This document shows positions 4,032 to 51,188 of a stretch of DNA of 64,000 nucleotides, one piece after another. The DNA is from Pirellula staleyi DSM 6068 (GTDB taxonomy: Bacteria; Planctomycetota; Planctomycetia; Pirellulales; Pirellulaceae), in the NCBI GenBank assembly GCA_945875845.1, contig CAMCMB010000005.1:62001-126000 (forward strand), in the 5' to 3' direction. Each line of letters starts with the position of its first letter. Positions within the stretch are counted from its first letter, which is position 1. The notes beneath the pieces are model-generated. The model saw nothing but the letters and a program-made list of their open reading frames with translations, made no database searches and was not told the DNA's origin. The position numbers and the translations under genes are program-made.

Positions 4032-4328
4032 ATGAAAGTCGATGTGGTCGCGCACATTCATGCCAAGTCAGGCATGGAAAACGCTTTACAAAGTGTGCTG
4101 GAGAGTTTTGTCGCCCCTACCCTTAAAGAGGACGGGTGCTTGCGATATGACTTGTTTGTCGACTTGGATGATCCAAGTAAGTTCACTTTCATTGAGGAAT
4201 GGGCAAGTCGGGAAGCGCTCAATACGCATGGAAAATCCGACCATATTGCGGCAGGCAGAGCCAAGTTTCCCGAGTTACTCGCCCAGCCTCCATGGGTTCA
4301 GGTGCTTGTGCGAGCTAGTAGGAACTAG
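4032..4328 (+). CDS. ABM-domain (quinol monooxygenase-like) protein
   Basis: Small 98-residue ferredoxin-like protein of the antibiotic biosynthesis monooxygenase (ABM / YgiN-like) fold. Supporting pattern: VVAHIHAKSGMENALQSVL at the N-terminus, KEDGCLRYDLFVDLDDPSKFTFIEEW in the middle and a HGKSDH segment before the last helix, all in the family order. Such proteins are dimeric; some oxidise quinols or small aromatics and some degrade haem, so the substrate is open. A purine-rich GAAGGGGG lies 6-13 bases before the ATG. It follows the sulfatases by 57 bases on the same strand and may be the last gene of that operon. Another reading frame across the same bases is a shadow. Confidence 0.85.
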   Translation: MKVDVVAHIHAKSGMENALQSVLESFVAPTLKEDGCLRYDLFVDLDDPSKFTFIEEWASREALNTHGKSDHIAAGRAKFPELLAQPPWVQVLVRASRN

Positions 4329-4420
4329 CTAGCTGTAACCAAAGAAAGCCGGTGACAACCAACGCCGGGTCAGTAGTCAGTAGTCAGTGAGCAGTGGTGA
4401 GTGGTGAGTGGGCACCTGCC
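4329..4420. repeat. Short degenerate GTCAGTA/GTGAGTG microrepeat
   Basis: Between the ABM gene and the first hairpin array, bases 4369-4411 are a run of imperfect 7-8 base units (gtcagta, gtcagtga, gtggtgag). No gene or hairpin is seen in the rest of this stretch. Confidence 0.6.
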
Positions 4421-42030: not shown

Positions 42031-42790
42031 TTCGCTGCCGAACAATTCTTCGCATGTCCGGGTACTGGAGTCGTACCGAAATACAACGCAAGTACATTTT
42101 CTTCTGCGGAGTCGTTTTTCGCCGCCAGCCAAACTCGTTGACCACCACGATCAATCCGATCACGATCACGATCAAAAGCGGACCAGGCCATAGCACTTGC
42201 TTGTTGGTCAATGACCATTGGAGCCATGCGTTTGTGTTTGTCGTCCAAGGCTGATTGAATAGTAACGCAATCGCCAGCAGAACGACACAAACGCACTTTA
42301 AGGCGAACTCGATTCCATTTTGCATCGTGAGTATGACCTTTGCCTTCGACGCATCGTGGCTCTGGCTCTCACGATTCCGTTTGCAAAAATCAAAAGCCAT
42401 CTCACAAACGGTTCTACGTATCGATTGGTAACGGATCATCCAGTACAGCAACCCCAACGATATCAAAACGGTGATGGCGCTGACGTATAAATCGAAGCTC
42501 TTGAGCTGGGTTGATTCCCGCAATATCAAGCTGGTTATCATTAAGCCTAGTAAGACCACGATGTTCGAATGGAGGACCAATCCCAGCAGCAAAATAACAA
42601 ATACAATTCGGATGATTCTGGGAATGGGCGCCGAGCCGAGATAAACAAAATCGATTACGCAGCCCATCCCCAACAGCAACATCAAACTACACCAAAGTAC
42701 GATGGTGTTGCGCATCGGATCCGTGCTCGAAACAACCACCTTTGGCTGTTCGGAGCTACCACTTACGGATTGGTTCGATGTTTTGCTCAT
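42020..42790 (-). CDS. Polytopic membrane protein of the MoxR-DUF58 operon
   Basis: Unrecognised 256-residue membrane protein with about six hydrophobic helices (for example IVLWCSLMLLLGMGCVIDFV, IVVLLGLMITSLIL, LYVSAITVLISLGLLYWMI, VCVVLLAIALLF and LLIVIVIGLIVVVNEFGW). It overlaps the DUF58 gene by four bases and so is translated with it. Its stop overlaps the end of the convergent CobA-HemD gene by 11 bases. No enzymatic motif was seen; a membrane partner for the MoxR system is the simplest reading. Confidence 0.6.
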   Translation of the reverse strand: MSKTSNQSVSGSSEQPKVVVSSTDPMRNTIVLWCSLMLLLGMGCVIDFVYLGSAPIPRIIRIVFVILLLGLVLHSNIVVLLGLMITSLILRESTQLKSFDLYVSAITVLISLGLLYWMIRYQSIRRTVCEMAFDFCKRNRESQSHDASKAKVILTMQNGIEFALKCVCVVLLAIALLFNQPWTTNTNAWLQWSLTNKQVLWPGPLLIVIVIGLIVVVNEFGWRRKTTPQKKMYLRCISVRLQYPDMRRIVRQRIKR

Positions 42791-44598
42791 CGGCCGGATC
42801 CTTGCGTCGTCAGCCGACCCGATCTGGCAATGGCGATTTCCGACAAAACCAACCCGGTCGCCTTAGGCTCTCCGGCGATCGACATGGGTACTCCGAGTTT
42901 GGTTAAGCTGCGTTTTAACGGCAGAGCTAGTTCCCTCAGCCGGATACCTTCCGCTAACAAACGAAGCTCAGCAACGGTATTGGCTTGGAGAGTTGACGAC
43001 TTGGTTTTCGGTCGATTCAGCGTCGGCGAAGGACAAATCACGGCAACGCGATGATGCTTGGACTTCGCGATTTTGATGGCACTCAAAAGCTCGTCCGTCG
43101 ATGATTTGTCACCCAGTAGCTCTGCCACGAGAACGAAGATTTCGTTGTCGTGCGCATGCGAGATTGCAGCCGTTAAGGCCCTTGTCAATAAACGCATTCG
43201 AACTGGGGAATCCTGGCTCTCGACGTTAGAAATAGATACGATTGGGGCCATCCATGGCATCCCCGATTCGCACAAGAATTTCAACAGATATTTGGCCAGC
43301 TCGTTCTCATCCATTACCATTTCGACATGGGTCGTCACCGAGAGGTTATAGAGTTCAGCCATGACTGCCGCCAACTGGATGCGTTGCCGACCTTTTTGGG
43401 TGCTAAACAACGCAAATGGGGCGAGCGAAAACGGATTGACCTGAGGATCAAGCAACTCCGGATAGCGTTCGCTGCAAACGGCATAGGCGGTCTCCAGCAT
43501 TCGCGGCGAGAATCGCGTGGTTCCGGTGGACCGATTTACGCAGAAGGCTCCCATGGCTCGCAGCTGCGAGTAGAAGCCAATCGTGCCAGATGCTGCGATT
43601 GTCCGCTTGGTCGCTTCTTCGTCGATCAAATAGCTACCGATGGCGTCACCGGCGGACGTCACCGAATGAGCGATACTGGCGCCAACGTGTGTCATTTGGT
43701 CGATCAACCGGCGCCCAAAGCCACCCATACGCGTGCTTGCCGTTCCATCGATTATCAGTTGAACACGAATAGGCACTTCGGATTCATACTGCCTCGTCAT
43801 CAGCTTGTCGCGTCTCGCGGACGCTTTCCAGGCTATCGTTTTTGGCGGATCGCCATCGACATATTCTCGCAGTTCAAGCAATTCGAAACCGATACCGGGC
43901 CGTTGCTGTCGATGAATTCCCTGCCTCGGAATCGCGTTCATTCGTTTCAACAGCGGACTCGCATCCGCCGATTCGGTGAAAGTGGGTAGCACGCGAAGGG
44001 TTTGGCGGAGCGCTACGAACCTGTCAAGCCGAAAGAGGTCGCACGTATCACGAAACTCCATTCGAATCCCTGGAAAGACAACCTCGCCTGCAGCCCGAAC
44101 ACGAGCCGTGTAGTTTATCTCAACCACCTGCTGAGGCGTCCGAACCGCCACTTGATTGCTTGGGCAAATCTCGTCGACCATCTTGAAAACGGATATCAAG
44201 CGTCCCATCTGCTGCCGAAGCCAAGACGAAGAATGGATTGCAGAAATCGGTGAAGACGATGGAATCGTGGAATAGATAATCTCAAGGTTTTCCGGTACTA
44301 CATCCCGAAAGAGTCGATATGGAAAAACTCGGTTGGATTTGCAGAAGATGCGAACGCGTATGTCGAGTGTTCGACCAGCCCACAGGACGCCTGTTGCATC
44401 CTTTCGTCCGTTGATCCATCGTTCCAACTGAAATCGCGCTAGCTCGCGTTGGCTGCAAATCGAAAACTGGACCCATTCCCAAAGCATCCACAACAACCAG
44501 GCGAGACAGAGAATCGCAACACTCATTTGGCCGCGCGTGACCCCTACGATGAGTCCGATGAGTCCTATGAGAGCTAGCTGTCGCGACCGACTCGTCAT
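42787..44598 (-). CDS. DUF58 domain protein
   Basis: 603-residue membrane-associated protein. Two short hydrophobic stretches at the N-terminus (LALIGLIGLIVGVTRG, ILCLAWLLWMLWEW) precede a long region; the DUF58 hallmark PGIGFELLELREYVDGDPPKTIAWKASARRDKLMTRQYE is at about 225-265, followed by a VWA-like RVQLIIDGTASTRMGGFG with D-x-S/T-x-S-type loop. DUF58 genes occur next to MoxR ATPases and are thought to act with them in metal insertion or protein assembly (family knowledge). Start overlaps the MoxR stop (ATGA). Confidence 0.9.
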   Translation of the reverse strand: MTSRSRQLALIGLIGLIVGVTRGQMSVAILCLAWLLWMLWEWVQFSICSQRELARFQLERWINGRKDATGVLWAGRTLDIRVRIFCKSNRVFPYRLFRDVVPENLEIIYSTIPSSSPISAIHSSSWLRQQMGRLISVFKMVDEICPSNQVAVRTPQQVVEINYTARVRAAGEVVFPGIRMEFRDTCDLFRLDRFVALRQTLRVLPTFTESADASPLLKRMNAIPRQGIHRQQRPGIGFELLELREYVDGDPPKTIAWKASARRDKLMTRQYESEVPIRVQLIIDGTASTRMGGFGRRLIDQMTHVGASIAHSVTSAGDAIGSYLIDEEATKRTIAASGTIGFYSQLRAMGAFCVNRSTGTTRFSPRMLETAYAVCSERYPELLDPQVNPFSLAPFALFSTQKGRQRIQLAAVMAELYNLSVTTHVEMVMDENELAKYLLKFLCESGMPWMAPIVSISNVESQDSPVRMRLLTRALTAAISHAHDNEIFVLVAELLGDKSSTDELLSAIKIAKSKHHRVAVICPSPTLNRPKTKSSTLQANTVAELRLLAEGIRLRELALPLKRSLTKLGVPMSIAGEPKATGLVLSEIAIARSGRLTTQGSGR

Positions 44599-45563
44599 GG
44601 CTGAGCGTCCACAACCACAGGAACCATTTTGATGAGCTGCTGGACAACCGTTTCCACCGTTTGGCCATCCATTTCCGATTCAGGCCGCATGATCAAGCGA
44701 TGTCCGAGCACAGGCAAAGCGATCGATTGAACATCTTCGTGGGTCATGTACTCACGGCCCCGCAACAGCGCATGGGCTCGACCGGCTTTCATCAAATAGA
44801 TGGCGGCTCGGGGGCTTGCTCCCAGGGCGAGATCCGCATGCAGTCGGCTTCTTCGAGCCAAGTCGACGATATATCCCTTGAGCTCTTGTGAACAAAACAC
44901 CAAGTCTACTTGTCGCTGGATCGATAGGATCTCCTCTGGACTACTGGTCGCTTCAATTTTAGCGGGAGGCCTACTATGCAAATCCAGCATTGCGACCTCA
45001 TGCTCGCGCTCGGGGTACCCAACTTGAATTCGAAAGAGAAACCGGTCTAACTGGGCTTCCGGCAAGCGATAGACGCCTTCTTGTTCGATAGGGTTTTGGG
45101 TAGCGAGCACCATGAAAGGTTCGGGTAGGGGAAGTGTCTTGCCTTCAATCGTAACCTGCCGTTCCTGCATCGCTTCCAACAAAGAAGACTGTGTTCGCGC
45201 CGGCGCTCGATTGAGTTCATCGGCTAGCATCAGTTGACAAAAAATGGGTCCTTTTCGCATCACAAAGTTACTTGTCTGACGATCCAGCACTTGAGTGCCG
45301 GTTACGTCGGACGGCAACAGGTCCGGCGTGAATTGAACGCGTTCGAAATGGATACCGAGAACCGTTGAGAAAGTTCGACACATCGTCGTCTTCGCGGTTC
45401 CAGGCACGCCTTCAAGTAGCACATGTCCACCTGCAAGAAGTGCGATGAGCAATTGATCCGTAACGCCACTGAGACCAACAACTACTTTTTCGATTGCTTG
45501 CTGGGCGCGGTTGCGAAGCTCTTTGACACGCAGGGCAATCTCGCCGGTGGATACTGGATGCAC
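44595..45563 (-). CDS. MoxR-family AAA+ ATPase
   Basis: Chaperone-like AAA+ ATPase of about 322 residues using GTG at 45563; the frame is open up to 45866 but upstream is within the preceding gene and the extension has no MoxR character. Walker A G-V-P-G-T-A-K-T-T near residue 52, Walker B LADELNRAPARTQSSLLEAMQE near 113, ATQNPIEQEGVYRLPEAQLDRF (sensor 1 and Arg finger region). MoxR proteins remodel or load cofactors with VWA/DUF58 partners. Part of the tightly packed minus-strand operon; the next gene overlaps by four bases. Start codon choice is uncertain. Confidence 0.85.
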   Translation of the reverse strand: MHPVSTGEIALRVKELRNRAQQAIEKVVVGLSGVTDQLLIALLAGGHVLLEGVPGTAKTTMCRTFSTVLGIHFERVQFTPDLLPSDVTGTQVLDRQTSNFVMRKGPIFCQLMLADELNRAPARTQSSLLEAMQERQVTIEGKTLPLPEPFMVLATQNPIEQEGVYRLPEAQLDRFLFRIQVGYPEREHEVAMLDLHSRPPAKIEATSSPEEILSIQRQVDLVFCSQELKGYIVDLARRSRLHADLALGASPRAAIYLMKAGRAHALLRGREYMTHEDVQSIALPVLGHRLIMRPESEMDGQTVETVVQQLIKMVPVVVDAQP

Positions 45564-45616
45564 GTATAATTTTTTTCTGTTGTAGAGTTGGTGCGTAGAT
45601 GCTCGTTGACAGGTTC

Positions 45617-47044
45617 CTAGGTCGAAGCAATCGCTAATTTTAGGAGCAAACGATTTATTGCGACACCAAGATTTTGAAGTTGTTCGTCCGAGAACATGGA
45701 TTTCTTTCCGTAGACGGCTAGTTCGACAATGGTTCGTACGGTCACTCTGTCTTGTTTCGACATGGCGACAGGTCGGGATTCGAGATCCAAATCCTGTAGA
45801 TAACGCTGCCAATCTGGAACAAAGTCTTTGCCAATCCATTTTCTGCAAAAATCCCGAGCAAGACACTCTGCTGCAAAACTGTTTTGATCTAAAGAATGAA
45901 TTGCATTGGTCTGTAGTTCATGCCAAGATCGCATTCGCCTTGGACCAAGGAATGGTAGCAACACCGACCTTCTTCGCATCCAGAGTAAAACAAGCAAGCT
46001 GATAAGCAGGGCTGCCAACACGCCCCAAATCAAGCGAAAGTAGCTTGCCGGAGACAGATTTCTCGGTTGATTTCGGAGTGCTTCATTGACAATATTCGAT
46101 TCCGCCACTCGCTGGATCGCCAGGTTCGCAAACCGCAGCAACGATTCGGACGTTGGTTGATTCGCGGCCACCTGACTTGGCGTCTTCGAGGTTCCCTGCT
46201 CACTCTTGCTCTTATGGTCAACAACCGTCTGATAGCCTGGCAACGCCACACCGTCGACCACGTAGACTAGCCGATTTCTATTCCTGTTGCACAAGGCATC
46301 AGCAATGCGAATAGAAAGCAACCCATTGTCGGCATGCCATAGCATTCCGTTGGTAAAGAGGCTCGCATCTGCTACGAGGAGGGCTGTTCCGGATCGTGGT
46401 GTCGCGTCGCGAAAAACGGCAATCAATGGTTTCGGTCGAGCCAGGTTCCGACCGCTCAGTTTCGTACTAGGTTGACTATCCTCGGGCAACGACGCGATGA
46501 CCTGCCATTGAGACAAGTCGCTACGAGACGGGGTCCGCCTCGACAGCCATCCAGAGCGGTTGGTCACAATCTCGCTTAGTCCCTTAGTTATGGGATGCGA
46601 TGAGTCGAGGTTTCGAACTCGCAGGCAATCCGAAAAGCCTTCGTAATGGTCCTCTTGAGTAGAGGACAACAGCGGTCCGGCATTCACTGTGCCGATATCC
46701 AGTATCTCCATACCCAAGGCGATTGGCGTACGATCCGTGGCGATCAGCAGATTACCGCCGCGCAAGAAAAACCCGCGCAAGTTGCCCCATGTCACGTGCG
46801 AAATTTTTTGAAGGTCGCCCAGAAGTACGACTACGGATTCTTCCGGCTGTGCAGCCGCTTCATTCAAAACGGTCGACGCTTTCAGTCCGCGTTTTTCGAG
46901 GAGAGATTGAAAGAGCTCATAACGAAAATGCCAGTCTGGATCGGTTGGCACCATGGAAGGTTCTTGAGCGAAACTTGAGTGCACAACCAGCCCGCACATC
47001 GCGGCTAACAGGAATGCAACGAATTGAAAACCCTTCTTGCTCAT
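45617..47044 (-). CDS. DUF4350-like secreted/membrane protein
   Basis: About 475 residues from the ATG at 47044 (MSKKGFQFVAFLLAAMCGLVVHSSFA, a signal peptide); the upstream ORF extension is rejected. The Rossmann-like first half (WHFRYELFQSLLEKRGLKAST, LRGFFLRGGNLLIATDR, MEILDIGTVNAG) matches DUF4350 proteins, which are usually found next to DUF58, DUF4129 and MoxR. A C-terminal transmembrane helix WGVLAALLISLLVLLWM (about 340-360) and a basic tail follow. Predicted role: membrane partner of MoxR; mechanism unknown. Gap to MoxR start is 53 bases. Confidence 0.75.
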   Translation of the reverse strand: MSKKGFQFVAFLLAAMCGLVVHSSFAQEPSMVPTDPDWHFRYELFQSLLEKRGLKASTVLNEAAAQPEESVVVLLGDLQKISHVTWGNLRGFFLRGGNLLIATDRTPIALGMEILDIGTVNAGPLLSSTQEDHYEGFSDCLRVRNLDSSHPITKGLSEIVTNRSGWLSRRTPSRSDLSQWQVIASLPEDSQPSTKLSGRNLARPKPLIAVFRDATPRSGTALLVADASLFTNGMLWHADNGLLSIRIADALCNRNRNRLVYVVDGVALPGYQTVVDHKSKSEQGTSKTPSQVAANQPTSESLLRFANLAIQRVAESNIVNEALRNQPRNLSPASYFRLIWGVLAALLISLLVLLWMRRRSVLLPFLGPRRMRSWHELQTNAIHSLDQNSFAAECLARDFCRKWIGKDFVPDWQRYLQDLDLESRPVAMSKQDRVTVRTIVELAVYGKKSMFSDEQLQNLGVAINRLLLKLAIAST

Positions 47045-47138
47045 TACGATTGCTCGCTCATCGCCCGTGCGTGAAAATATTTTGTATTCGGGATCGCGAG
47101 GCTCCTGTAAACATCGCTGCAATATTGAATGAATCCGA

Positions 47139-48755
47139 TCAATTCTTGGATATCTCGCATTCCTTCAAGGCCCGACGCACCTCGTCGATTTGAGTGTCAG
47201 TCAGCCTTACTTCCGACGGCAGGTAGCGGGCTTGTTCGTAGATGTCCACGACAACGTTCATGGGGGACTGAGCGGAGGGCTTTGTCCGACATACTTGACG
47301 CGCGATATTACGATGCGTCCACCACGACTCCATGGGATGCACAATTCGATACGCAAGTTGATGAAAAGCTAGAATCACATCGGCCCGCGTTTGAATGCTG
47401 CTAGGCGTTTTCAACAGGTCGATCTGGTTCTTGAAAGGATCTCGATGGGCCGTGGCTTGAACACGACTGCGACGGGAATAGAGAATCAAGCCAATCAACG
47501 CTAAACCAACCAAAGCGGTTGGTAGAAGTAACCAAGGACTGGGAAGAGCTATTTCGAGCGAAGGCGTTGGATTGACACCCAATTCGGGACTCGGTGATTG
47601 CGATGGCTTTGCAGCAGTGGTTGCATCGATCTCTTTGACGAACTTCGCAAACCAATTGCTCCACGCATTAACGCTGTTGTTGTTGGAATTGGAGGTTGGA
47701 GGTGAAGATGGTTTCAAAGGATTCGTCGATGGACTTGATGAACTCGAGCGATTGGCTGACTCCGCAGGTGGGAGTCCTTTCGATTTGGGGAGCTGAGAAG
47801 GCGCTTTGACTTCGCCCGACCTGGAGGGGTCGCTTTTTCCGTCCTTGGGTTGTGACCCTGAGGCGGGCCTCGCATTGGATTCCTTTCGGCTAGCTTGGTT
47901 GGCTTCTTCGAGGATGCGTTGGAGGGTTGGGCGAAATCCTTTCTCATCCAATTGTTTCTTAATGTCCTCCGATGCGTTTCGGCTGGTTGGTGGGCCGGGG
48001 GTTGCCTCTTTCGATTTCTCGCGCGCTTTCAACTCCGATTCATCGACTTGTTTTAAAAAATCTTCAATGGACTGAGCCATTTCACGCTGCTGTAGTAATC
48101 GATTGGTTTTTTGATTTGTGTTTTCATTCGTTGGCTGAGCTAACGATTGAAAGGGATCCTCGGTTTGCTCGGGATCGGTTGGTGCATCCCCTGCTGGATT
48201 GTCGGAGGACTCTTCCTTCTTTTCGGGCTGAGTTGGTGAACGAGGTGGGTTTTTTGGCTTTTGGCTTGGGGTCGACTGAGGTGGTGTTTTGCGCGATGAG
48301 GAAGGTGTTGTTGCGGAGGGTTTCGATTGATCTTCGTTGTTACGAGCGTACTGCTCGATCAGTTGCTCGGCCTTCTCACGCACTTCAGGATCCGCCATGG
48401 CTTTCGCCAGCGTCTCCGCCGAAAGTCCGTTCAAATCCGGAGCCTTGAAATCCGGAGGCAATTGATCTCCGAATTGTTTGATCAATTCCTGTAATTGTTT
48501 GACGTCCAATTCACTGACGTTCGGCCATTGTGCTTGAGGGTTAGGCGATTGCTGCAAAGCCTCTGCAAACGGGGAATTTTGATTCGCTCGATTCGCTGGA
48601 ATTGGAAGCCAACGTTGAAATCGCGTTTCCGGTTGATCCGTTGCTGGCTTAGGCTGGGCGTTGAGGCGAACCGCAGGCATGCATAGGCACACGAACATGA
48701 GGCAACGAAACGTCCACCTATGGCTTCGATACGGTTTTCTGAGTGGATCTAACAT
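47139..48755 (-). CDS. DUF4129-like membrane protein with Pro/Ser-rich linker
   Basis: 538 residues, first gene of the MoxR cluster. N-terminal hydrophobic segment CLMFVCLCMPAVRLNA is a signal or anchor. About 60-370 is low-complexity, rich in P, S, K and E (runs like PSSSRKTPPQSTPSQKP), likely unstructured. One transmembrane helix LLLPTALVGLALIGLILY near 412 precedes a C-terminal helical domain with VILAFHQLAYRIVHPMESWW and EVRLTDTQIDEVRRAL, like the DUF4129 domain. Its start is 312 bases from the divergent DAHP synthase gene. Confidence 0.65.
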   Translation of the reverse strand: MLDPLRKPYRSHRWTFRCLMFVCLCMPAVRLNAQPKPATDQPETRFQRWLPIPANRANQNSPFAEALQQSPNPQAQWPNVSELDVKQLQELIKQFGDQLPPDFKAPDLNGLSAETLAKAMADPEVREKAEQLIEQYARNNEDQSKPSATTPSSSRKTPPQSTPSQKPKNPPRSPTQPEKKEESSDNPAGDAPTDPEQTEDPFQSLAQPTNENTNQKTNRLLQQREMAQSIEDFLKQVDESELKAREKSKEATPGPPTSRNASEDIKKQLDEKGFRPTLQRILEEANQASRKESNARPASGSQPKDGKSDPSRSGEVKAPSQLPKSKGLPPAESANRSSSSSPSTNPLKPSSPPTSNSNNNSVNAWSNWFAKFVKEIDATTAAKPSQSPSPELGVNPTPSLEIALPSPWLLLPTALVGLALIGLILYSRRSRVQATAHRDPFKNQIDLLKTPSSIQTRADVILAFHQLAYRIVHPMESWWTHRNIARQVCRTKPSAQSPMNVVVDIYEQARYLPSEVRLTDTQIDEVRRALKECEISKN

Positions 48756-48841: not shown

Positions 48842-48870
48842 TTGCATATTTCGAGCGCGGGACCCATAAT
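48842..48870 (+). promoter_or_regulatory. Sigma-70-type promoter for the DAHP synthase leader
   Basis: TTGCAT (48842-48847) and CATAAT (48865-48870) with a 17-base spacer; both match the consensus at 5 of 6 bases. The expected transcription start is near 48877, immediately at the ATG of the Phe/Tyr-rich leader, so the leader peptide would be translated from a leaderless mRNA. This reading fits the absence of a Shine-Dalgarno sequence before that ATG. Confidence 0.65.
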
Positions 48871-48877
48871 CTTGCAC

Positions 48878-48961
48878 ATGAATCGATATCGAAGGGCAAA
48901 CTTTCCGTTTTATTACTTTACCGGGCCAGACTCGGGCTGTGGGGGTTTTTCCGTTCGCTAA
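48878..48961 (+). CDS. Putative Phe/Tyr attenuator leader peptide
   Basis: 27-codon ORF, M-N-R-Y-R-R-A-N-F-P-F-Y-Y-F-T-G-P then D-S-G-C-G-G-F-S-V-R, with 4 Phe and 3 Tyr, of which FPFYYF form a block. This composition matches the control peptides of aromatic amino acid operons (such as PheL) and is the right kind for a DAHP synthase gene, whose products are Phe, Tyr and Trp precursors. The stop (48959-48961) is 25 bases before the terminator stem. No codon-usage evidence can be drawn from so short an ORF; the call rests on position, promoter, terminator and composition. Confidence 0.65.
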   Translation: MNRYRRANFPFYYFTGPDSGCGGFSVR

Positions 48962-48997
48962 TCGAATCGAATAACAAGTTTTCCAACCTCAAGGCCC
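48934..48997 (+). promoter_or_regulatory. Antiterminator pairing (region 2:3)
   Basis: 48934-48938 (GGGCT) pairs with 48993-48997 (GGCCC), and 48942-48947 (GGGGTT) pairs with 48985-48990 (AACCTC), giving 11 base pairs (two are G-U) around a small internal loop. This pairing takes the entire 5' arm of the terminator (48987-48995). The upstream half overlaps the 3' end of the leader ORF (D-S-G-C-G-G), downstream of the Phe/Tyr codons, as expected for a stalled ribosome to expose it. Confidence 0.55.
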
Positions 48998-49018
48998 GCC
49001 GCCTTGAGGTTTTTTTTT
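48987..49018 (+). terminator. Intrinsic terminator in the DAHP synthase leader
   Basis: Perfect 9-bp stem CCTCAAGGC / GCCTTGAGG (48987-48995 and 49001-49009), loop CCGCC, followed at once by nine T (49010-49018). It lies in the gap between divergent genes and 50 bases before the aroF-type start; no + strand gene ends upstream of it, so it acts as an attenuator rather than an operon end. Confidence 0.85.
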
Positions 49019-49067
49019 GCACCGAACGAGCTCACCTCGTTCTCCTTCCTTTGGAGAAGTCAGTCCC

Positions 49068-50084
49068 ATGATCATCGTGATGGAAAAATCGTCGTTGGAT
49101 CCACAAATTGAGTATATCGCTAACCAAATCACTGAGTTGGGGCTCAAGGCGCACGTCATCCGGGGTACAGAACGGACCGTCATCGCTGCCGTGGGAGACG
49201 AACGCAAAATCAAAGTAGAATCCTTTGAAAGCTACCCGGGCGTCGCGGAAGTCCTACCGATCTTGGCCCCCTACAAGATGGCCTCGCGAGAAGTTCGCAC
49301 GGACCAAACACAAGTTCAAGTATTGAATTTCAAGGCAGGCAACGGGGCCGTGGGTGTGATGGGCGGACCCTGCTCGGTAGAAAGCGAGGAGCAAATCGTG
49401 TCGTGCGCGAGGGCGGTCAAGGCGAGCGGCGCAACCGCTTTGCGAGGAGGGGCCTACAAGCCTCGAACGAGCCCCTATGCGTTCCAAGGAATGAAAGAAG
49501 AGGGCTTGAAGCTACTGGCCTTGGCTCGCCAAGAAACCGGCTTGGCCGTCGTCACCGAAGTCATGAGCCCCGAAGATGTGGAACTGGTCGCGAAGTATGC
49601 CGACATCCTGCAGATCGGTGCGAGGAATATGCAAAACTATCGATTGCTGGAAGCCGTCGGGCGTTCAGGACGAGCTGTCCTACTCAAACGAGGGCCCAGC
49701 GCCACGATTGAGGAATGGCTTCTTGCAGCGGAATACATTCTCAATGAAGGTAATCCTGACGTGATGCTATGCGAGCGCGGCATTCGCACCTTCGAATCGC
49801 ACACACGATTCACATTGCCGCTTGCAACCGTGCCTTATTTGCATCGTAAGACGCATTTGCCTGTGATCGTAGACCCAAGTCACGGGACGGGGCATTCGTA
49901 TTTGGTGACCGACATGGCGGCGGCCAGCGTTGCAGTCGGCGCAGATGGCTTAATCGTGGAGATGCATCCGAATCCCGAGAAGGCATTAAGCGATGGTTAT
50001 CAGTCCCTGGACTTTACCCAATTCGACACCATGATGAAACGCTGCAAGGTTATCGCCGACGCGATGGGAAAACAGTTCGGTTAA
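49068..50084 (+). CDS. aroF: DAHP synthase, type I-beta with ferredoxin-like regulatory domain
   Basis: First enzyme of the shikimate pathway: PEP plus erythrose-4-phosphate to DAHP. 338 residues from the ATG at 49068 (an upstream in-frame ATG at 49017 overlaps the terminator). N-terminal about 70 residues ([20 protein letters not shown]... [15 protein letters not shown]) form the ferredoxin-like domain that binds Phe/Tyr for feedback in T. maritima-type enzymes. The catalytic barrel shows [61 protein letters not shown] and [10 protein letters not shown], with the conserved K, R and H ligands. Leader shows an attenuator (see leader peptide). Confidence 0.95.
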
Positions 50085-50148: not shown

Positions 50149-51108
50149 TCACTTTTGCAGGGTGTACTTCTCGATGAATTCCACCACGGGTGTGGGATCA
50201 TCGAGTCCATGCGGATGGTGGCCCACTCCTGGCTTGTGGATGACCTCAAAAACCCCACCGAACTCCTTGTAGAGCTTCTCGGCCACCGCGGTGTTCTCCT
50301 CGACTGGGACGACATCGTCGCTGTCCCCGACGACCGAAAGGATCGCGATCTTGTGCTTGGCTAAAAGTCCTAGTGTTTTCAAAGGTGTGTGAGGGTAGTC
50401 TGCGGCCTGCTGGTCGGAGTCAAACCCGTACCATCTTCGGAGCTCTCGCCAATCGCCAGGGCTCCCCTTTCCTTTCCCTTTGCCGCCTGGCCAACTTTGG
50501 TAGTCCAGCACGGCCGCGTCGTCATAGATCACGCTGACGCGATCTGGATAGGTCGCTGCGTAGCGATGCGCATAGAGCCCTCCACGGCTGATCCCAATCA
50601 ATGCGGCTTGGGGATGGAATCCGCGCTCAGCCAGCATCTTGTGAAATGCACCGAGCTTTTCGATGGCTTTGGGAGCACCGAAACTATTGCCGACCGAGAG
50701 AAACACATGGTAGTAGCCACGGCGGACGAGCATCGGCGCTGCACATCGATCGGTGAACGCATCCGGAAACATCATGCACCAGGAGAATCGACCATCGGCT
50801 CGTGGGTTTTCTGGTTCGACCACCCAAGCTTCTTGGCCATCGAAAGAGAATTTATGGCGTTTGAAGCCGTGCCATGAATCGATCGTTTCTGCGTCAAAAG
50901 CCAAGTCGATCTTCTGCGACGCAAGCTCGATGCACACGGCCTCGCTGTCATCGCGTAGGTAACCGCAACCATTCGCGATCGAGAGAGTCTGTCCGTTTTT
51001 GCCGATCAGTGTCGCACGACTGAGTTCTTGGAACCCACTCGCATCATTGCAGCAAACCGCGAAAGGCATCAGGATCATTGCAAGCTTGGAAACAAAAGAG
51101 TAACGCAT
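50149..51108 (-). CDS. Exported alpha/beta hydrolase
   Basis: About 320 residues from the ATG at 51108 (MRYSFVSKLAMILMPFAVCCNDASG, a signal peptide). Alpha/beta-hydrolase pattern: LIGISRGGLYAHRYAATYPDRV with nucleophile elbow G-I-S-R-G-G near residue 180, VVGDSDDVVPVEENTAVAE (Asp) and GVGHHPHGLDDPTPVVEFIEKY (His) near the end. Similar to prolyl-oligopeptidase-like or acetyl-esterase proteins; substrate unknown. It faces the aroF gene convergently (50084). Confidence 0.8.
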   Translation of the reverse strand: MRYSFVSKLAMILMPFAVCCNDASGFQELSRATLIGKNGQTLSIANGCGYLRDDSEAVCIELASQKIDLAFDAETIDSWHGFKRHKFSFDGQEAWVVEPENPRADGRFSWCMMFPDAFTDRCAAPMLVRRGYYHVFLSVGNSFGAPKAIEKLGAFHKMLAERGFHPQAALIGISRGGLYAHRYAATYPDRVSVIYDDAAVLDYQSWPGGKGKGKGSPGDWRELRRWYGFDSDQQAADYPHTPLKTLGLLAKHKIAILSVVGDSDDVVPVEENTAVAEKLYKEFGGVFEVIHKPGVGHHPHGLDDPTPVVEFIEKYTLQK

Positions 51109-51188
51109 GGGAAGTTCCCTAATTTTTGTGAGCCGCTTGTTGTTAGAGGCGTGTTTATCGAACAGCACGGATCGTCGTGCAGTCGTTC

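Follow-up and report, generated by a model that had tools for sequence, protein, structure and literature searches.

The DAHP synthase gene in this window (the whole 64-kb stretch of DNA that was analyzed) is very probably controlled by a ribosome-mediated transcription attenuator that lies before the gene and senses the charging of tRNA-Phe and tRNA-Tyr. The attenuator-like feature at 48842-49068 is real, and its anatomy, conservation, strand fit and geometry were computed. An aromatic-rich ORF, an intrinsic terminator, an antiterminator that excludes it and a suitably placed stall site, all expected of a leader-peptide attenuator, were found, and the reading of the region as an attenuator in the original prediction is supported.

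We propose that transcription would begin at or beside the leader AUG and that a ribosome would load at the 5' end of the transcript without a Shine-Dalgarno sequence. When Phe or Tyr runs short, the ribosome would stall on FPFYYF (codons 9-14) and leave strand 2 free. Free strand 2 would then pair with strand 3 as it emerges, no terminator would form, and transcription would read through into the DAHP synthase gene. With ample Phe and Tyr, the ribosome would proceed over strand 2 toward the stop codon, strand 3 would be free to pair with strand 4, and transcription would stop at the T tract. Without a ribosome, strand 1 is predicted to pair with strand 2. In this scheme we infer where transcription starts, that the leader is translated, that ribosomes stall on it, that transcription terminates and that starvation elicits the response. 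Since a sensor ORF is joined to an RNA switch, the gene is probably on when Phe or Tyr (in many relatives, Trp) is short. The same device, mostly with added Trp codons, would operate before the orthologous gene across much of the class Planctomycetia.

The elements of the region are as follows.

48842..48847, + strand: -35 element TTGCAT, read in the sequence and supported by conservation in relatives
48865..48870, + strand: -10 element CATAAT, with a 17-nt spacer from the -35 element and 7 nt 5' of the leader ATG
48878..48961, + strand: leader ORF of 27 codons plus stop (ATG 48878, TAA 48961), MNRYRRANFPFYYFTGPDSGCGGFSVR, kept in relatives
48902..48919, + strand: regulatory codons 9-14, Phe-Pro-Phe-Tyr-Tyr-Phe (TTT CCG TTT TAT TAC TTT), from aromatic-density tests
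48898..48925, + strand: strand 1 (protector), predicted by folding to be the partner of strand 2 on a ribosome-free leader
48933..48944, + strand: strand 2, 5' side of the antiterminator, within the leader ORF, from folds and the swap test
48987..48998, + strand: strand 3, 3' side of the antiterminator, overlapping the 5' arm of the terminator, from folds
48985..49018, + strand: intrinsic terminator, stem 48985-48995/49001-49011, loop 48996-49000, T9 at 49010-49018, from folding
49053..49056, + strand: GGAG, likely ribosome binding site for the DAHP synthase gene, read in the sequence
49068..50084, + strand: type I-beta DAHP synthase (aroF-type) with an N-terminal ferredoxin-like domain, 338 aa, ATG 49068

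The leader region and the DAHP synthase gene

The original prediction had described a promoter TTGCAT-N17-CATAAT at 48842-48870 and a 27-codon ORF with FPFYYF at 48878-48961, and both are present as claimed. The terminator is also there with its T9, on a stem of 11 bp rather than the predicted 9 bp; 0/200 shuffles equal its stability. The antiterminator has the 11 pairs that had been claimed (two of them G-U), at coordinates that differ by 1-3 nt from those first given. Of the 11 nt in the terminator's 5' arm it covers 9, so that "fully" occupying this arm was a slight overstatement, and the two structures are mutually exclusive. A comparison of their energies, proposed as a check, gave -17.7 kcal/mol for the terminator and -22.1 to -22.2 kcal/mol for the antiterminator hairpin. 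The predicted pairs between strands 1 and 2 join 48921-48925 with 48931-48935 and 48898-48905 with 48941-48948. Taken alone, the antiterminator region 48930-49000 is modest relative to shuffles (z -1.98, 6/200 equal or better), and so is the fold of the whole leader, 48878-49020 (z -1.70, 11/200 equal or better). Support for the antiterminator of the window is comparative and comes from the strand-swap test across relatives described below.

The terminator has no other evident use. As had been noted, no + strand gene ends upstream: ORF 47139-48755 (DUF4129) is on the minus strand, and thus the terminator serves no + strand gene there. This ORF belongs to a row of minus-strand ORFs at 42787-48755 (DUF58, MoxR-type AAA, DUF4350 and DUF4129) that is divergent from the DAHP synthase gene. 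The window contains 76 terminator-like sites on its two strands (42 + 34), among which the DAHP synthase site alone is preceded by at least five Phe, Tyr or Trp residues in eight codons; an ORF with four in eight codons precedes none of the 76. A generic sigma-70 promoter scan of the window did not list TTGCAT-17-CATAAT, by our reading of the scan's rule because TTGCAT fits just 3 of the 6 consensus bases. A search of the window against Rfam at the gathering score gave 0 matches.

The protein is an ordinary DAHP synthase. The ATG at 49068 and the type I-beta assignment were confirmed by its domains, DAHP_synth_1 (PF00793, E 1.1e-76) and the ferredoxin-like domain that had been predicted, DAHP_snth_FXD (PF18152, E 4.4e-21). 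It passes NCBIfam NF006421 and TIGR01361, and NF009239 for its DAHP part, and its best solved relative is 1rzm (E 3.5e-103, residues 1-335). The type I-beta DAHP synthase of Thermotoga is subject to feedback inhibition by Phe or Tyr, and the attenuator would put a further layer of control of the aromatic pathway above enzyme feedback. The gene is probably monocistronic, since the next long ORF 3' of it, 50149-51168, is on the minus strand. A search of the genome found a single type I-beta DAHP synthase plus a 35% match; NCBIfam identifies the latter as a KDO8P synthase. The type I-beta enzyme is not the sole entry to the pathway, since the genome also carries a type II DAHP synthase (PF01474) on another contig (G000:C13:19406-20719).

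The leader could instead merely aid expression of the gene through translation coupling or reinitiation, without control of termination. Leader genes that boost translation of the gene downstream have been proposed for many bacteria including planctomycetes, and this proposal covers distances of ~10-16 nt (PMC4833913). Here, the stop codon of the leader is 106 nt from the DAHP synthase start, with a strong terminator in between, and we consider reinitiation without termination control extremely unlikely.

Conservation of the leader in Planctomycetia

Upstream regions of the orthologous gene were gathered at the level of genus, family, class and phylum and from titled contigs, and 236 were kept once near-identical ones had been removed (an earlier set went from 226 to 188). 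The loci were chosen for their closeness to the query or by kinship label, so the sample is not random: 80 family, 20 paralogue and 60 class-level regions were hand-picked from listings, G140, G127, G120 and G167 were left out of the family orthologues (G114 was included), and several dozen entries were left out of the class listing. L203, L212 and L231 have no usable upstream region, and L243 is too short. We scored each region for a short ORF that ends at most 70 nt before a terminator, the score being the number of Phe, Tyr or Trp residues per eight codons. The score takes the best ORF in each region, and dinucleotide shuffles that left the terminators intact were therefore used as a control.

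At least four aromatic residues in eight codons precede a terminator in 151/236 regions, compared to 20.4 in shuffles. At a threshold of five, the counts are 125/236 and 8.6 (~14-fold; at most 13 in any of 20 shuffle sets), and at six they are 79/236 and 2.8. When 189 amino-acid triples with 4-6 codons were ranked on the earlier set, the triple FWY came out on top, with 99/188 regions, and triples without F, Y or W reached at most 11/188. The leaders share a common layout rather than a common sequence: the length, order and residues of the aromatic cluster differ between genera. The ORF stays open despite synonymous changes in its Phe and Tyr codons, as in TTT TAT TAC TTT (L001), TTC TAC TAC TTT (L005) and TTT TAT TAT TTT (L113). 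In L007, the sensing segment is duplicated in frame (QFYFASGQFYFASGQ), which suggests that tandem duplication can add regulatory codons.

The leader is widespread, yet not universal. Regions with at least four of eight number 13/19 in the window's genus, 54/79 in other Pirellulaceae (label f1, an assignment that rests on the titles of close contigs) and 15/19 in other families of the same order. Elsewhere the counts are 11/11 in f3, 15/18 in f70, 3/6 in f71, 1/6 in f72-f74 and 39/78 among titled contigs; we read f70 as Isosphaeraceae and, with less confidence, f71 as Gemmataceae and f3 as Planctomycetaceae. A score below four of eight was obtained for 85/236 regions, and 27/236 have no terminator by the rule used. 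In the window's genus, L008 and L115 are without the leader, and the gap from stop codon to terminator is longer, 48-51 nt, in L006, L007, L032 and L114. Absence of the ORF, terminator or Phe/Tyr codons from related genomes had been named as grounds for giving up the attenuator. The outcome is favourable overall, with some of the relatives lacking the leader or having the terminator only.

The terminator-only relatives (L011, L012, L013, L036 and L120, all of the window's genus) have a terminator and no aromatic leader ORF, and possibly represent fixed partial termination. Four of them, L011-L013 and L036, are what one might expect if the terminator were controlled by some other factor, such as an aromatic-responsive protein, a T-box or a riboswitch, with the short ORF incidental. 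That explanation is highly unlikely, given the excess of aromatic ORFs over shuffles and the lack of any Rfam match at the leader in 20 diverse relatives; a conserved aptamer known to Rfam, such as a T-box or riboswitch would have, was found neither in the window nor in these 20. One of the contigs titled Gemmataceae, L105, has a match to the c-di-GMP-I-GGC riboswitch (RF03167, 64.4 bits) at 4295-4404 on the minus strand, just 3' of the DAHP synthase gene.

The leader goes with this one gene, since loci of the paralogue, of trpE and of outgroups are without it. For the paralogue, a further copy of DAHP synthase with about 45-53% identity, 0/48 regions have at least five of eight (0/18, plus 0/30 in f71). 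The f71 paralogue set comprises 30 loci from 15 genomes. These 15 genomes, 11 of them from genus g231, carry only paralogous DAHP synthases without the leader; in g231, whose genomes reach 10 Mb, the leader is present in 0/11 genomes. The highest paralogue score is 4, in L214 and in L352, where it stems from the last part of a coding sequence lying upstream, whose product we take to resemble a prephenate dehydratase tail. Eight loci from outside the class gave 0 at five of eight, with a maximum of 3.

Trp attenuation before trpE was considered and rejected: of 30 loci taken, 29 were scanned (L257 is too short), and 0/29 reached five of eight, the maximum being 4 in L260 alone. A terminator is lacking in 17/30 of the f71 paralogue regions and 10/29 of the trpE regions, and these regions could not score since the score needs a terminator. 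In f1, Leu-rich short ORFs (e.g., MFTPALLLLLLSLLALGS) stand directly before terminators 5' of leuA in L388, L393 and L395. At least four of eight Leu, or Ile, Leu and Val, were counted in 8/27 leuA regions and 3/28 ilvB regions, counts that carry no shuffle control. Leucine attenuators before leuA are therefore possible in some genera, and attenuation in f1 may extend beyond the aromatic gene.

The Phe/Tyr form that was originally predicted holds for the window's genus. We regard it as a local form of a general aromatic attenuator because the leaders of relatives mostly add Trp codons. Clusters with 4-8 aromatics in eight codons contain Phe, Tyr and Trp codons in the numbers 31/28/2 in the window's genus, 178/80/40 in other f1 and 19/12/40 in f70, and Trp occurs in 2/13 clusters within the window's genus versus 114/138 outside it. 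A type II DAHP synthase is present in 25/27 genomes of the window's genus and in 22/80 chosen genomes across the class. Counted by genome, the densest eight codons are without Trp in 13/22 with a type II enzyme versus 6/58 without one; by genus, kinship ignored, the counts are 4/11 and 6/51. Conversely, 4/10 genera without Trp and 7/52 genera with Trp have a type II enzyme. A link between missing Trp codons and the type II enzyme was not accepted, and these counts are suggestive at most (Fisher p = 0.067 at the genus level, where the genera are related).

The promoter is also repeated in relatives. A -10-like hexamer with TTG 16-18 nt before it abuts the leader start in 73/131 relatives, compared to 0 to 10 at displaced controls. 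Between the hexamer and the start codon there are 4-9 nt, in most cases 6 or 7, and the commonest promoter hexamers are TTGCCA and CATAAT. Shine-Dalgarno-like motifs precede just 3/128 leaders that start with ATG. The spacing places the probable transcription start at about 48877-48878, at or next to the leader AUG. Because the promoter abuts the start codon and Shine-Dalgarno-like motifs are rare, the leader ORF is probably leaderless.

Strand pairing and the modelled switch

Strand 2 fits the strand 3 of its own leader. In the swap test on the 151 leaders, the mean pairing energy was -20.6 kcal/mol for native strands versus -16.8 kcal/mol for swapped ones, and 0/2000 permutations reached the native value. 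Against shuffled spacers, z is below -2 in 93/151 leaders and above -1 in 24/151 (including L010 and L014), and in just 46/151 does the native strand 2 do better than 95% of foreign strands (median rank 0.19). The antiterminator is thus kept across relatives on average, though it is not significant in each single leader. In these 151 leaders, the median distance from the last aromatic codon to the start of strand 2 is 8 nt. Strand 2 also ends inside the ORF, with a median of 15 nt left to the end of the stop codon, and in 103/151 relatives at least 40% of it is paired with upstream sequence.

The location of strand 2 within the ORF bears on the end of the leader peptide. Many relatives share a C-terminus like SPPGRGAGGG or PPGRGAGG 3' of the aromatic cluster, and we suspect that this ending recurs because its codons also write the RNA structure of strand 2. 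A shared C-terminus could also belong to a nascent-chain sensor like TnaC, in which a free aromatic amino acid or the peptide, not uncharged tRNA, arrests the ribosome; known arrest peptides contain aromatic residues. Nevertheless, the cluster varies in length, order and residues and has a duplicated segment in L007, unlike a precise tunnel-binding sequence, and the C-terminus encodes a strand 2 that fits its own terminator. In addition, arrest by an excess of the amino acid would be regulation in the wrong direction for this pathway. We consider a nascent-chain sensor very unlikely and favor a ribosome that responds to uncharged tRNA-Phe and tRNA-Tyr.

We modelled the switch with a ribosome that leaves RNA free from 13 nt past the first base of the A-site codon. 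For the leader in the window, upstream capture of strand 3 ahead of the synthesis of strand 4 has a modelled probability of 0.59-0.72 while the ribosome occupies codons 2-16; farther along the leader it falls to 0.15-0.30, the drop coming two codons past the Phe/Tyr cluster. Mean modelled capture in the 151 leaders is 0.69 for ribosomes on aromatic codons and 0.20 for those at the stop codon; a ribosome placed at the final aromatic codon gives 0.65, versus 0.48 with shuffled spacers (n = 151). In the model, strand 2 is left accessible by a stalled ribosome and is covered once the ribosome advances. Without a ribosome, strand 3 is still captured in the model (0.65 in the window, mean 0.59 over the 151), and the effect of codon position arises in part from there being less free RNA. 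At modelled equilibrium, the finished terminator wins at all ribosome positions of the window leader (0.94-0.98). The switch must therefore be kinetic, as decisions by attenuators usually are.

Possible coupling in planctomycetes and relation to known attenuators

An attenuator of this type implies that transcription and translation are coupled, because the switch needs a ribosome right behind RNA polymerase. It therefore bears on a disputed point, whether ribosomes directly follow RNA polymerase in planctomycetes, which was once doubted for some of them. Separation of transcription and translation has been claimed for Gemmata obscuriglobus (Gottshall et al. 2014, as cited in PMC6212462), and the compartment model or cell plan behind this claim is disputed in PMC6554331. 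Planctomycetes are not among the phyla given as having runaway transcription in PMC13323073. Leader and terminator are both present in two contigs titled Gemmataceae, L093 and L105, and these leaders speak for coupling in Gemmataceae, but the 11 genomes of g231 in f71 have none.

A broader view, for and against which we see about equal reason, is that a single leaderless leader reading Phe, Tyr and Trp, with strand 2 inside its ORF, has controlled an entry into the shikimate pathway since the ancestor of Planctomycetia. It would be genomic evidence of coupling, including in relatives of Gemmata, and Trp codons would have been lost in some lineages, perhaps as a type II DAHP synthase took over control by Trp. 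A planctomycete attenuator of this kind was not found in one open-access library; one could be contained in the comparative attenuation survey by Lopatovskaya et al. 2010 that PMC4833913 cites. The attenuator would extend ribosome-mediated attenuation to a phylum for which no case was found in that library.

Several known leaders share parts of this design. Attenuators in tabulated form include one sensing Tyr-tRNA before aroF of Shewanella, in the table of PMC2659441. Like the E. coli leaders pheL-pheA and trpL-trp, which are mentioned in PMC11802643, the planctomycete leader has regulatory codons, hairpins that compete and an intrinsic terminator, and it would rely on coupling of ribosome and polymerase. 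The planctomycete strand 2 lies inside the ORF, unlike that of E. coli trpL. There, strand 2 is located past the stop codon, and pheL-pheA and trpL-trp serve branch enzymes and one amino acid each. The ilvGMEDA and thr leaders of enterobacteria each have codons for more than one product of a common pathway, as here, although those products are branched-chain amino acids or Thr and Ile and the ones here are aromatic. We know of no described leader with Phe, Tyr and Trp together. Leaderless leader peptides are found in Streptomyces lividans (trpL1, leuL and ilvL), with start sites taken from transcriptome data according to the account in PMC8079986. The planctomycete leader resembles these actinobacterial leaders in a probable start at the leader start codon, here judged from promoter spacing, and differs in that theirs serve other amino acids and genes.

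The closest known system is aroR-aroF of Corynebacterium glutamicum. Its attenuator is reportedly the subject of a source study by Neshat et al. 2014. As published descriptions have it, a leader peptide with Phe-Tyr-Phe precedes the DAHP synthase gene, and transcription goes up through ribosome stalling under Phe limitation, Tyr being without effect (PMC11802643, PMC4046766). The likeness drawn here is to that published description rather than to the DNA or its structure, and consists of an aromatic leader peptide ahead of a DAHP synthase gene. Compared to aroR-aroF, the planctomycete leaders belong to another phylum, have 4-8 aromatics in eight codons, and usually include Trp outside the window's genus.
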